Shown here piece after piece: positions 16,382-22,095 of a stretch of DNA of 35,703 nt; the stretch's first letter is position 1, and each line of letters begins with the position of its first letter. The position numbers and the translations under genes are program-made. The notes beneath the pieces are model-generated. The model did no database searches. It had not been told where the DNA came from and saw only the letters and a program-made list of their open reading frames with translations. The DNA is from an uncultured bacterium. Its GTDB lineage: Bacteria > Patescibacteriota > Minisyncoccia > Phycocordibacterales > DATDWN01. The DNA is taken from positions 1-35,703 of the forward strand of contig CAIOTC010000010.1 in assembly GCA_903861205.1 (NCBI GenBank), in the 5' to 3' direction.

Positions 16382-16804
16382 TTATTTCCCCGTACTACCT
16401 AGGCCGCCAGCGCCACGAGATGTTTCCGACAATTCAGCCGCTTCTTCTATTTTTACTGAAACTACCGACTGAATGAGCATTTGAGCAACTTTGTGATTTT
16501 TTTCAAAAACATAATCTTCACTCCCGAGATTTACCACCCCAACAATCAATTCGCCTCGATATCCCGAATCCAAAACTCCTCCCAAAACTTTTATGCCGTG
16601 GTTTATTGAAAGTCCGCTTTTATCCCAAAAGAGTCCAACATAACCATCCGGCACCTCAACGGAAATTCCCGTGTGAATCTTTGCAATTTTTCCAACGGTG
16701 ACAACCACTTCCTCGCAGGCAAACAAATCCATGCCCGCATCACCCTCCTTGGCATACTCAGGCAATTTCGCCTCCGGATTCATTTTTTTAACTTTCAAAA
16801 TCAT
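16382..16804 (-). CDS. dut: dUTP diphosphatase (dUTPase)
   Basis: EGDAGMDLFA, DKSGLSINHGIKVLGGVLDSGYRGELIVGVVNLG, C-terminal SRGAGGLGSTGK. Confidence 0.95.
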   Translation of the reverse strand: MILKVKKMNPEAKLPEYAKEGDAGMDLFACEEVVVTVGKIAKIHTGISVEVPDGYVGLFWDKSGLSINHGIKVLGGVLDSGYRGELIVGVVNLGSEDYVFEKNHKVAQMLIQSVVSVKIEEAAELSETSRGAGGLGSTGK

Positions 16805-16893: not shown

Positions 16894-17520
16894 ATGAAAA
16901 TAATCGGACCGCCAGACGGAAGTGGTGGAGGAATGATCCGGATAAGTCACCCGGATGGAAGAGCTAGCGCAGAATTGAACAACAGAGACATCATTATGAT
17001 ACTTGCGATGTCTAGAAACAATTGCATCGGAAAAAATGGTGGCATCCCGTGGCGTATAAGCGCGGATATGAACCACTTCAAAGAAACAACGATCGGAGAT
17101 TCCAAAACTTCCGGCAGAAAAAACATTGTCGTAATGGGAAGAAAAACATTTGAGTCAATTCCTCCCAAATTCAAACCGTTGCCAGACAGAATAAATGTTA
17201 TTCTGTCGCGCGGAGCATTTGAAGCTCCATATGATGATTGCAAAGTAGTTCACGATTTCAGAAGAATTCTTGCAATCGCCAGACACAAGAAAGTTTTCAT
17301 CGCCGGTGGAGGAGATATTTACAAACTCTTCCTGCCATTCGTCAATCGCTTGATCATCAGCCACGTTGATCTTTTTGTCGAAAATGGCGACACTTTTTTC
17401 CCGGAAATCGGAAACGAGTGGTGCAAAGTTTTGTCCGTTTTCCACCCAGCCAATCTCGAGAAAAACACACCGTCTTTCACAATCTGCACCTACACCAGAT
17501 TGCCCCGACCGCGCCCATGA
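16894..17520 (+). CDS. folA: Dihydrofolate reductase with ~30-aa N-terminal extension
   Basis: IIMILAMSRNNCIGKNGGIPWRISADMNHFKETT, NIVVMGRKTFESIPPKFKPLPDRINVILSR, VFIAGGGDIYKLFLP; aaagga ribosome site before ATG. Confidence 0.93.
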   Translation: MKIIGPPDGSGGGMIRISHPDGRASAELNNRDIIMILAMSRNNCIGKNGGIPWRISADMNHFKETTIGDSKTSGRKNIVVMGRKTFESIPPKFKPLPDRINVILSRGAFEAPYDDCKVVHDFRRILAIARHKKVFIAGGGDIYKLFLPFVNRLIISHVDLFVENGDTFFPEIGNEWCKVLSVFHPANLEKNTPSFTICTYTRLPRPRP

Positions 17521-17588: not shown

Positions 17589-19358
17589 CTAGAACAAAAT
17601 GCTTGATTTGAACGATGTGTCTTGCTCGTATGGCTCGCCGGTTCGAAGCTTGAGTTCAGCTATGGCCAGTTCGGTGCCAAGATAAATTGCATGGGTGGTG
17701 GTAAGCGAAGCCACAACGCCTATTTTGTCTCGCAATTCGTAAGCAGTCTTGCCGACGAACTTTTCCAGAACGACGCCGCTTTCAGGGTGTAGCAGAGAAA
17801 CAACAATATTTCCGGCTTTGATTTGGATCTGGTAATTACCTCTGGCATCAGAGCAGGTTTTGATGTCAGCCGAATATTTTTTCAGCATCTCCTCGACCTG
17901 CTTGAAGTAATTATTGTAGATCTGGGCACTGCCGGAAATGATAATCAGAAGACCTGTCGGCAAGCCGATCGCCTTGGCGATTTCGGCCTGAATAGCCGCA
18001 CAGCCGTAAGCATTTTCCGGCCAACCCTGGGTCATGTCGTGACTTCTGAAAAAAACTGTCAAATTCAGTTTTTCATCCTGAACCAACGCTTGAATCGAAA
18101 CTAAACACGGCGACGACTTGTGCTTGCGCATCAGTTCATCGGCCGGATGCCAGGTCATAGCCACGCAGGCTTTGGAATACTTGTCGTGCCCTAAGACATC
18201 AACAATATCCTGGAGCTGATCGATTTCACAAAAGCCATCTCCGTAAGTAACATTCCGGTCAAGCCATGGACCTTGTTTAAAATCGAAGTCTTTGTACTCG
18301 GAAGTTTCGACTAATCTTTTGATCTGGTCCGGCGCAGGAAACGTGTAAGCCCGCAACTTGTTGCCGTAGGTGTAAGCCTTACCGGCGGGCAAAATCGGAG
18401 ACAAAATTTCAGCTTTATAGGCTTCAATTTTTTCTGCGGTCAGCGGAACCAGAAACGGATTCAACGACAAATCCATGTTCTGCGGATCATGAATGACCAC
18501 CGTCATGTCATTGATCTCTCTAACCACCCGATCAGTCTTGGCATTCATCAAATTGGTGCGACCATAACGCCAAACCTGAGCGATCATCTTGATCCAGCTA
18601 TCGGGAATACTACCACCGTGAACAACAATCGGACCACCTTCGTACGGGAAAGCTTCATCCGATTTTTCGTAGCCAAAAACTTTCGGCTCGGCAAACGGAT
18701 ATTTTTTGCACAAAGTTTTAATGAGATTGTTTGCCTCGGCAATTTTTTCTTCGAGTGAAGAGCCGGACATTCCCTTATTAAGATCTATGAGCTCAACTTC
18801 TCCCCGGACAAGCTCGATCAATTCCATCGGAATATTCTTGTCGACGTAAACAGAATTCCCAAAGCCATCGATTTTTCTGTCTTGGTTTATACCATTAGCA
18901 AAGAAAGCACGGATGGCATTTGCGCTAGTCAATTCGGATCCACTTTTTTCCAACGAACATCCTTCGCCCAACGACGAGTATTCATCGCCGAGCAAAATGA
19001 CATAGCGAATATACGGATTTCCCAATATGTTCCGAATCATCGGCTCGATGCCGGCCGGAGTGTAGAAATTAGCGGCAATGGCCAAATTTACTTTTTCCAG
19101 CTTGGGCAATACATCATCACGGATAGTCCACAGGAAAGCCACACCGACGTTTGCCTCTGTCACCCTCAGCTCTGATGATGACGGAAAAGCAATTCGGTCA
19201 CGAGAAGCAACCGGCCAACCGATTTCACCGCTGGAACCCACAAGACTCTTTATCTTTTCAAGCATACAATCCTCCGGGGTTAAAGATACCTTTATTGCGG
19301 AAAAAAGCAAACGATCACATCCTTCCTTGTCTCTGAGTGAAAAAGAAAAGTCGCCCAA
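17589..19358 (-). CDS. Fusion: N-terminal MtrA-like (DUF4346-like) domain + C-terminal archaeal-type thymidylate synthase domain
   Basis: N-terminal VNLAIAANFYTPAGIEPMIRNILGNPYIRYVILLGDE resembles MtrA; C-terminal YTYGNKLRAYTFPAPDQI, SSPCLVSIQALVQDEKLNLTVFFRSHDMTQGWPENAYGCAAIQAEIAKAIGLPTGLLIIISGSAQIYNNYF is TS-like with the catalytic PC and the SAQIY (SAHIY-like) motif. Confidence 0.8.
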   Translation of the reverse strand: MGDFSFSLRDKEGCDRLLFSAIKVSLTPEDCMLEKIKSLVGSSGEIGWPVASRDRIAFPSSSELRVTEANVGVAFLWTIRDDVLPKLEKVNLAIAANFYTPAGIEPMIRNILGNPYIRYVILLGDEYSSLGEGCSLEKSGSELTSANAIRAFFANGINQDRKIDGFGNSVYVDKNIPMELIELVRGEVELIDLNKGMSGSSLEEKIAEANNLIKTLCKKYPFAEPKVFGYEKSDEAFPYEGGPIVVHGGSIPDSWIKMIAQVWRYGRTNLMNAKTDRVVREINDMTVVIHDPQNMDLSLNPFLVPLTAEKIEAYKAEILSPILPAGKAYTYGNKLRAYTFPAPDQIKRLVETSEYKDFDFKQGPWLDRNVTYGDGFCEIDQLQDIVDVLGHDKYSKACVAMTWHPADELMRKHKSSPCLVSIQALVQDEKLNLTVFFRSHDMTQGWPENAYGCAAIQAEIAKAIGLPTGLLIIISGSAQIYNNYFKQVEEMLKKYSADIKTCSDARGNYQIQIKAGNIVVSLLHPESGVVLEKFVGKTAYELRDKIGVVASLTTTHAIYLGTELAIAELKLRTGEPYEQDTSFKSSILF

Positions 19359-19382: not shown

Positions 19383-20258
19383 TTATTTTTTCTGATTCCG
19401 CACAAGATCTTGCAAGGCGGCAAGCGATGCAAGCATTGCAAGTTGCTGAATCATATTATCGGCATTGTGGCACGAGAATTCATAACCACCATGACGACCG
19501 ATTGAACCATGAGACGGATGTAAGCCGCAAGCATTACCCGGACAACTAGTGTTGAGCCATCCGTCACTGCCTTGCGTGTAAGCTTTAAACTCATAGTCAT
19601 AAAATGAAGGAATTTTACCTTCCATTTTAAGCCACACACCTCGCATCGCTTCAACCATTTCTGAGATCATGCTCGTGGGCCCTTGTCGAAGAAAAGTGAC
19701 AATATCTTCACCATACTCACCACCAATTGACCCACCGTGTAAACTCTGAATGGTTACAGTGTGAATAGTCATCAGTTGAGAATTTGTTGCTGGTGTCTCA
19801 ATCTCAGGAAATCTCATATAATCAAAGAGGGTGCTGTGACTTGCTGAGACAGCGTAGGCTTCTTTGTAGTCATAAACTACTTCTCGTCCTTCGCCATCGC
19901 AATACAAACATTTGTCTTCACGGTCCTCGTCGTTTCCTGTGCCTTCACATTTCCAACATTTTACATCGGAAAGTTTTCGACACAGAGATGCTGGAACATG
20001 ATATTCAAGGAACTGACCAACCTGTCCCAAGAATTTCAACGAGTGTTCGTAACCCAAATCTTTTCCAAACTCTCCGCCAAATTCTTTGAAACCGAAGTCT
20101 GCTTTGAAGCTTTCCAAAATCGGTGCGTCTTGTCGAATAGGCTTGACGCCGGTGGCGAACTCTTGATGAATCCGCAATATAACACCAACTGCCGGCCTCC
20201 AAGACAACTCGTACCAACAAGGTATTCTGTCCATGATAACCGTCTTTATGTTATGCAC
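19383..20258 (-). CDS. Uncharacterised protein with paired CxxCxGxG-like zinc motifs
   Basis: KCWKCEGTGNDEDREDKCLYCDGEGRE (DnaJ-type zinc pairs); C-terminal SCPGNACGLHPSHGSIGRHGGYEFSCHNADNMIQQLAMLASLAAL. Confidence 0.75.
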   Translation of the reverse strand: MHNIKTVIMDRIPCWYELSWRPAVGVILRIHQEFATGVKPIRQDAPILESFKADFGFKEFGGEFGKDLGYEHSLKFLGQVGQFLEYHVPASLCRKLSDVKCWKCEGTGNDEDREDKCLYCDGEGREVVYDYKEAYAVSASHSTLFDYMRFPEIETPATNSQLMTIHTVTIQSLHGGSIGGEYGEDIVTFLRQGPTSMISEMVEAMRGVWLKMEGKIPSFYDYEFKAYTQGSDGWLNTSCPGNACGLHPSHGSIGRHGGYEFSCHNADNMIQQLAMLASLAALQDLVRNQKK

Positions 20259-20982: not shown

Positions 20983-22095
20983 TTACTTCCAACTTTTGAA
21001 ATACTTGGCGAGACCTGGACCATCCTGAACTTTGAATTTAGTTCCGGGTTGCTGGTCATAATGAACCAGTGGCCGTTCAATCATTCTGTCAAAATAAATT
21101 TTGGCAAAAGGTTGTCCTCTTCTGGCCATGAATCCGCTTTCAAAACATCGAACTTCCAGAGTCAATGGCCGGCCCTTACATGTCCCGTCCGGACCAACTC
21201 CCCAACCCGGAGCAATGTACCCGGCATAGTGAACACGGATTTCTCCATTTCCTTCATCCATAGGCATCATCTCACAAGCAAGTGTCGGCAGGACCCGCAC
21301 ACTTTCCTCTGTTGAAAGAATGCTGAAGGAATTAGGATTAAAATATATTGAGGAATCGTTCGATAAAAGTATCTCTCGGAAAAAACATCTGGGATCGTAG
21401 TAATTCGTCAGAGAAAGATTTATCGGTTCGCCGTTTTTGATAGCTTCAAACCCAACAACGGAAAAATCAAGGCCTAGCGACAAAGGAATGGAACCGTCCT
21501 CGCTGGGAGATTCCATGTCTTCGTAAAGTATTTGTTTCCCGTGCCGGTCAAACAACATACCACCCTGAGAATTAAATATTGTCCCAAGCCTAAACTCGTC
21601 CAAACGGGTCTCTTGGCTGAAGAAACGTATCTGGCTAAAAGACATGCCTTCGTTTGCGGTGACAGCAAAGGATCGCGCCTCAACCATATTCCATATCGAA
21701 CCGGTGTAACCCTTTGGTACAAAATTGAATTTTGGAACTCCGTCCGCCAAAAGGCGCGACATGATGTCCACTCGTCCAATATTTGATTTTGGGTTTGCGT
21801 GAGCGTGAACTCCGTCCGGAATCTTTTGTACAAATTTTTCAGCTAACCGAAAAATGTAACATACTCCAGCCTCCAATATTGAATCCGGTTTTACGCGAAT
21901 CCCATAATAGTGGACAAAATCCTCAACCCTTTCGTTGCTCTTTGGCAAAAATCCTCTGGGTAGCCTGTAGACCTCTCCCGTAGTAACCGGATCATAGGTG
22001 TCGGTACAAACATTTTTCGTGTTTGCATTTTCAATAAAACCGTTTTCCACCAACTCTGTTATGAGTTGGCCAGGCAAAGCTCCGCCGTATTTCAT
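20983..22095 (-). CDS. dcd: 2'-deoxycytidine 5'-triphosphate deaminase family (DCD type, tandem domain)
   Basis: GALPGQLITELVENGFI, AHANPKSNIGRVDIMSRLLADG, and second-half YAGYIAPGWGVGPDGTCKGRPLTLEVRCFESGFMARRGQPFAKIYFDRM. Confidence 0.85.
   Translation of the reverse strand: MKYGGALPGQLITELVENGFIENANTKNVCTDTYDPVTTGEVYRLPRGFLPKSNERVEDFVHYYGIRVKPDSILEAGVCYIFRLAEKFVQKIPDGVHAHANPKSNIGRVDIMSRLLADGVPKFNFVPKGYTGSIWNMVEARSFAVTANEGMSFSQIRFFSQETRLDEFRLGTIFNSQGGMLFDRHGKQILYEDMESPSEDGSIPLSLGLDFSVVGFEAIKNGEPINLSLTNYYDPRCFFREILLSNDSSIYFNPNSFSILSTEESVRVLPTLACEMMPMDEGNGEIRVHYAGYIAPGWGVGPDGTCKGRPLTLEVRCFESGFMARRGQPFAKIYFDRMIERPLVHYDQQPGTKFKVQDGPGLAKYFKSWK

Follow-up and report, generated by a model that had tools for sequence, protein, structure and literature searches.

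A thymidylate synthase set between MtrA-like and DUF4346 domains in Patescibacteria

The gene, its domains and its neighbours

The window, by which is meant the whole 35,703-nucleotide stretch of DNA analysed here, comes from a Patescibacterium (CPR) with a genome (G000) of 883 kb that is 99.4% complete; of the named relatives, a Candidatus Zambryskibacteria MAG is the closest, with an orthologue at 73% identity. An open reading frame at 17589-19358 was confirmed on the minus strand and, read from TTG to stop, encodes 589 aa. Because relatives align only from residue 32 of the frame as read from TTG (orthologue comparison), and because direct reading of the sequence places GGAGG upstream of an ATG at 19265, the gene is probably 19265..17589 (-), encoding 558 aa, and the first 93 bp of the frame are probably non-coding. 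The features of the locus are as follows.

17589..19265, minus strand: likely MtrA-like / thymidylate synthase / DUF4346 fusion gene, 558 aa; frame open to the TTG at 19358
19271..19275, minus strand: GGAGG, resembling a Shine-Dalgarno sequence, 5 nt ahead of the ATG at 19265, from direct reading
18732..19220, minus strand: N-terminal MtrA-like domain (PF04208; 5laa-like), corrinoid triad lost
17898..18626, minus strand: thymidylate synthase domain, methanogen type (TIGR03283, 137.7 bits, cut-off 174.55)
18105..18107, minus strand: catalytic Cys387 (= E. coli TS Cys146), invariant in 24/24 fusions
17619..17849, minus strand: C-terminal PterinBD-DUF4346 domain (DxRG...LG.EL..AE...YxQD)
16894..17520, plus strand: dihydrofolate reductase (DHFR), convergent neighbour (PF00186, E 3e-42), the sole canonical DHFR in 25 fusion genomes
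16382..16804, minus strand: dUTPase-like gene (dUMP supply), motifs by eye; homologues near the L141 and L150 fusions
20983..22095, minus strand: dCTP deaminase, long form (DCD_N + DCD_C), 1.6 kb from the fusion

Three Pfam families are matched in the order MtrA (92-209, E 2e-8, 34.3 bits against a cut-off of 25), Thymidylat_synt (PF00303, 377-496, E 4e-19) and PterinBD-DUF4346 (PF14251, 504-580, E 1e-11, 45.7 bits against 29.6), and all exceed their curated cut-offs. The three thymidylate synthase (TS) motifs quoted in an earlier note on this DNA are all present in the frame and its identification of a TS holds, with catalytic residues that align; the domain was there placed in the C-terminal half, whereas it lies in the middle of the protein, flanked by the MtrA-like domain on its N-terminal and DUF4346 on its C-terminal side. 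Likewise, an N-terminal half resembling an MtrA-like/DUF4346 family had been proposed, of which the MtrA homology stands, while DUF4346 is a different domain, C-terminal of the TS. The flanks thus match MtrA and DUF4346 and not just a known TS extension.

The fusion frame is not due to chance: full-length orthologues are 73-74% identical to the window protein, dN is about 0.17-0.21 against two of them with differences mostly at third codon positions, and 24 fusion sequences could be aligned. An assembly or gene-calling artefact has a negligible probability and was excluded, in that independent genomes from 13 families, as well as a viral contig, contain the three-domain frame.

The genes around the fusions, with families named from their sequences, include a dCMP deaminase at 13 loci, a dCTP deaminase at 5 and a dTMP kinase at 6. 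In the window, a 291-aa protein (19383-20258, minus strand) is encoded with the fusion on one side and an NT5C-like 5'-nucleotidase on the other, and carries a CxxCxGxG zinc-finger-like motif that falls below the Pfam cut-off.

Distribution and possible history of the fusion

Of the genomes sampled (297 from the order and 380 from the phylum), 25 Patescibacteria of 13 families carry the fusion; in one of the 25 (G196) it is cut off by a contig end, and in two (G522 and G458) it is split over contig ends and was counted by inference. One full-length homologue is encoded on an 81-kb IMG/VR viral contig, and the phage and plasmid collections gave only partial, ordinary TS matches. On the viral contig (L151:5986-10368) the fusion is clustered with genes for a ribonucleotide reductase and a PduO-type adenosyltransferase-like protein, the latter two recognized by eye. 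In most other TS-bearing genomes the TS is an ordinary ThyA, about 270-340 aa long; these ThyA sequences make up a well supported clade of their own in the tree, and the tree may be compatible with the fusion TS having arisen once.

A genome of the same class (G631) encodes an unfused 281-aa MtrA-DUF4346 protein, which retains His84 and Glu54, with a 256-aa TIGR03283-type TS directly downstream; Planococcus and Paraburkholderia, too, encode stand-alone MtrA-DUF4346 proteins. Since the parts are unfused in G631 and the fusions have the TS between the two halves, the simplest history would be the insertion of a TS into an MtrA-DUF4346 gene.

Several related arrangements were observed. Two stand-alone MtrA-DUF4346 proteins (L152:3458-4837 and L153:4686-5867) have an N-terminal extension, Cys-rich in the second; both lie in a heavy-metal resistance context, the first beside genes for a P-type ATPase and an ArsR/SmtB regulator and the second beside a MerR-like regulator recognized by eye. 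Genome G308 carries a second, divergent TS-like frame (L125:7768-8718, plus strand) about 0.4 kb from its fusion, which groups with the short TS-like sequences L054, L057 and L060. In G530, which also has an ordinary ThyA, a 406-aa protein (L161:9113-10330, the same as L056:919-2136) combines a TS-like domain with an apparent SAM-methyltransferase domain (ALDLGCGTG).

The synthase and its two flanking domains

The best NCBIfam model for the TS domain is TIGR03283, the methanogen TS, in agreement with the archaeal type assigned in the earlier note; positions 2-200 of the 201 in the profile are covered, and the window protein scores 135-138 bits, below the threshold of 174.55. Scores across the fusions range from 85 to 167 bits, all under the cut-off, with 166.7 for the best fusion tested. 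The fusions thus resemble the methanogen enzyme in matching its whole profile and in having a short TS that lacks the ThyA tail, but differ from it in their sub-threshold scores and in being embedded between two other domains. TS, MtrA and DUF4346 are themselves known families, each recognized by existing NCBI/Pfam models.

In E. coli TS numbering, the catalytic Cys, Arg166 and Asn177 are invariant in the 24 aligned fusions, as are the YxYG tyrosines, the Arg126 position is K or R in all of them, and Tyr209 and Asp169 are each present in 21. The Arg127 position is variable and the His207 position is occupied by H, Q, E or S; in the window protein these are Ala and Gln, respectively, so that some dUMP contacts would differ from those of the E. 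coli enzyme. An AlphaFold2 model built with 24 relatives (pLDDT 76.8, pTM 0.71) retrieved thymidylate synthases with Foldseek (E 1e-12, probability 1.0), so that modelling, too, gives a TS fold.

Neither a second ThyA-like gene in the host genome nor a match to ThyX (PF02511) in the window frame or that genome was found, and both were rejected as the host's source of dTMP; the fusion gene is the host's only recognizable thymidylate synthase. The invariant catalytic residues, together with neighbours for dUMP supply and a dTMP kinase, indicate that the fusion very probably makes dTMP from dUMP. A TS-family enzyme with another product, such as a dUMP or dCMP hydroxymethylase for a modified base, is highly improbable. 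The CMP hydroxymethylase MilA is among the Foldseek structural matches, the His207 and Arg127 positions vary and one homologue is viral; against this, Asn177 is the uracil-selecting residue, usually Asp in cytosine-acting relatives, and is kept in every aligned fusion, the neighbours supply dUMP and phosphorylate dTMP, and with a sole TS homologue and no ThyX the host's dTMP would otherwise lack a known de novo source.

The N-terminal domain is homologous to MtrA of the methanogen Mtr complex (5laa, E 2e-9; see also 5l8x), in which His84 ligates the cobalt and is supported by Glu54 and a GAIPF meander (PMC4915002). His84, Glu54 and the meander are absent from all 23 fusions with a visible N-domain, and the triad is kept in four of four controls, namely M. 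jannaschii MtrA and three stand-alone MtrA-DUF4346 proteins. The fusions differ further from the Mtr-complex subunit in having no membrane anchor. A corrinoid-binding His, which the earlier note had proposed to look for, is accordingly missing, and corrinoid use by the N-domain was rejected; with the site missing from all fusions observed, B12-based C1 transfer finds no support. Comparison of these sequences indicates that the MtrA-like domain of the fusions is repurposed, its cobalamin site given up. The bacterial MtrA-DUF4346 protein (NF002128/PRK00964; e.g. WP_082707470.1) contains the two flanks in the same order but has no internal TS and, unlike the fusions, retains His84 and Glu54.

For DUF4346, 'PterinBD' is Pfam's name for the family. 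Its AlphaFold2 fold is beta-beta-beta-alpha-alpha (pLDDT 80), with no significant fold match of the model among PDB structures and no meaningful match of the sequence among solved structures. Within the fusions, D473 and E537 of DUF4346 are invariant, as are W46, Y68 and R78 of the MtrA-like domain, the last three being specific to fusions.

Folate enzymes and the proposed function

As controls for the 25 fusion genomes, 50 genomes with an ordinary ThyA were drawn from the same samples. Canonical DHFR occurs in one of the 25 (the host's own) versus a strong DHFR in 45 of the 50 (Fisher 1e-13, a p-value that overstates certainty, as the controls were hand-picked for high completeness and the genomes are not phylogenetically independent); at E<=1e-5 the counts are 4/25 and 49/50. 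The weak matches in G491, G297 and G561 are RibD_C-type reductases, not canonical DHFR, and were left uncounted. SHMT is found in 6 fusion genomes versus 48 controls, FolD in 7 versus 48, and ThyX in none of the 25. None of DHFR, SHMT and FolD is present in 17 of the fusion genomes, nor in G631 with its unfused pair. Among 4,581 CPR genomes, folA occurs in 54.8%, glyA in 81.3% and folD in 79.7% (PMC11974145), and the fusion genomes are therefore an unusual set. In the host, Fmt is present (L105:9577-10461) though SHMT and FolD are absent, which leaves the source of 10-formyl-folate unexplained.

The pattern is repeated among close relatives, the ordinary-ThyA genomes having been viewed over about ±10 kb around thyA. 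Within one genus, the fusion genomes G278 and G197 lack DHFR, SHMT and FolD, while the ordinary-ThyA genome G108 has DHFR adjoining thyA, with FolD close by; in family f5, DHFR lies beside thyA in three ordinary-ThyA genomes and is absent from the fusion genome G004; in f141, it lies beside thyA in G489 and is absent from five fusion genomes. Within the span viewed around thyA, G158 and G530 showed no DHFR. The association between the fusion and the absence of folate genes is not causation, and genome reduction could delete these genes independently.

This co-occurrence pattern favours the link to unusual C1-carrier handling suggested in the earlier note, and makes its term 'folate-dependent' doubtful, since most fusion genomes are without SHMT, FolD and DHFR. 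In the reading that we favour, to which we give an even chance, the protein would be a dTMP-making TS largely independent of the cell's folate enzymes, with flanks that handle a reduced-pterin carrier. The methanogen-type domain between the MtrA-DUF4346 halves would turn dUMP into dTMP by standard Cys-nucleophile TS chemistry, and the MtrA-like half, its corrinoid site lost, and DUF4346 would most likely bind and position a tetrahydropterin C1 carrier, which may let the TS work in cells nearly without folate machinery of their own. The carrier would probably be a reduced folate or a tetrahydromethanopterin-like pterin from other cells, and once oxidized it would be re-reduced in most fusion organisms by an agent other than canonical DHFR, the host having a DHFR next door. 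Some observations count against this reading: the adjacent DHFR suggests that, at least here, dihydropterin is produced and needs reduction; RibD_C-type dihydropterin reductases, as in three fusion genomes, or FolM-type enzymes could replace DHFR; and the six fusion genomes with SHMT and FolD are unexplained by a simple account of no folate at all.

The same observations bear on a simpler account, which we regard as unlikely but worth weighing: an ordinary folate-dependent ThyA whose flanks are structural only, a dimer or stability scaffold in place of the missing C-terminal tail of ThyA, in cells that lost folate genes by genome reduction and use a non-homologous dihydrofolate reductase. The largely standard TS active site, the RibD_C reductases and the DHFR beside the window gene fit this account, as does the stop of the TIGR03283 profile at the Tyr209-like motif, which leaves DUF4346 in the place of the ThyA tail. 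Yet the flanks are conserved over 13 families, their five invariant residues exceed the needs of an inert scaffold, and ordinary-ThyA genomes of the same phylum have retained DHFR.

Alternatively, methanogenic archaea serving as hosts could supply the carrier, in the form of tetrahydromethanopterin or some other C1 carrier of archaea; this proposal appears rather doubtful. The closeness of the TS to a methanogen equivalog, the affiliation of the MtrA and DUF4346 families with the tetrahydromethanopterin world (the fusion protein matches TIGR00284 in part) and a negative result of the same DHFR search in the control genomes of M. jannaschii and M. acetivorans are in its favour, and some Patescibacteria parasitize methanogens (PMC10936435, PMC9600506). 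Fmt and PurN-like genes, the latter at two fusion loci, imply folates in some cells, SHMT and FolD occur together in six fusion genomes, and the host DHFR argues for folate here because the DHFRs of M. extorquens reduce dihydrosarcinapterin in traces only (PMC6193120).

A ThyA-type synthase oxidizes its folate carrier and is for that reason generally considered to depend on DHFR, and ThyX, which has an unrelated fold and was not found in the fusion genomes, occurs in DHFR-less genomes. A bolder and improbable reading is that the fusion constitutes a third DHFR-free route to dTMP beside ThyX, in which the remodelled flanks would retain the carrier and either spare it from oxidation or re-reduce it in place, so that no dihydrofolate is released; this would explain the fusion genomes that have SHMT and FolD while lacking both canonical DHFR and ThyX (G045, G333, G491, G442, G586 and G515). 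The bifunctional DHFR-TS enzymes of protists are similar in that a TS is fused to a pterin-related domain, but the partner domain is unrelated, and DHFR is for the fusion a separate gene (window host) or absent. In a search of mainly open-access literature, no paper was found that mentions DUF4346 or describes the fusion.

The fusion represents a widespread TS family that is the only recognized thymidylate synthase in most of its hosts, which are nearly always without canonical DHFR and often without SHMT or FolD. It presents an MtrA-like domain without its cobalamin site, offers the uncharacterized DUF4346 a testable role, and sharpens the question of how CPR bacteria synthesize DNA with almost no folate metabolism.
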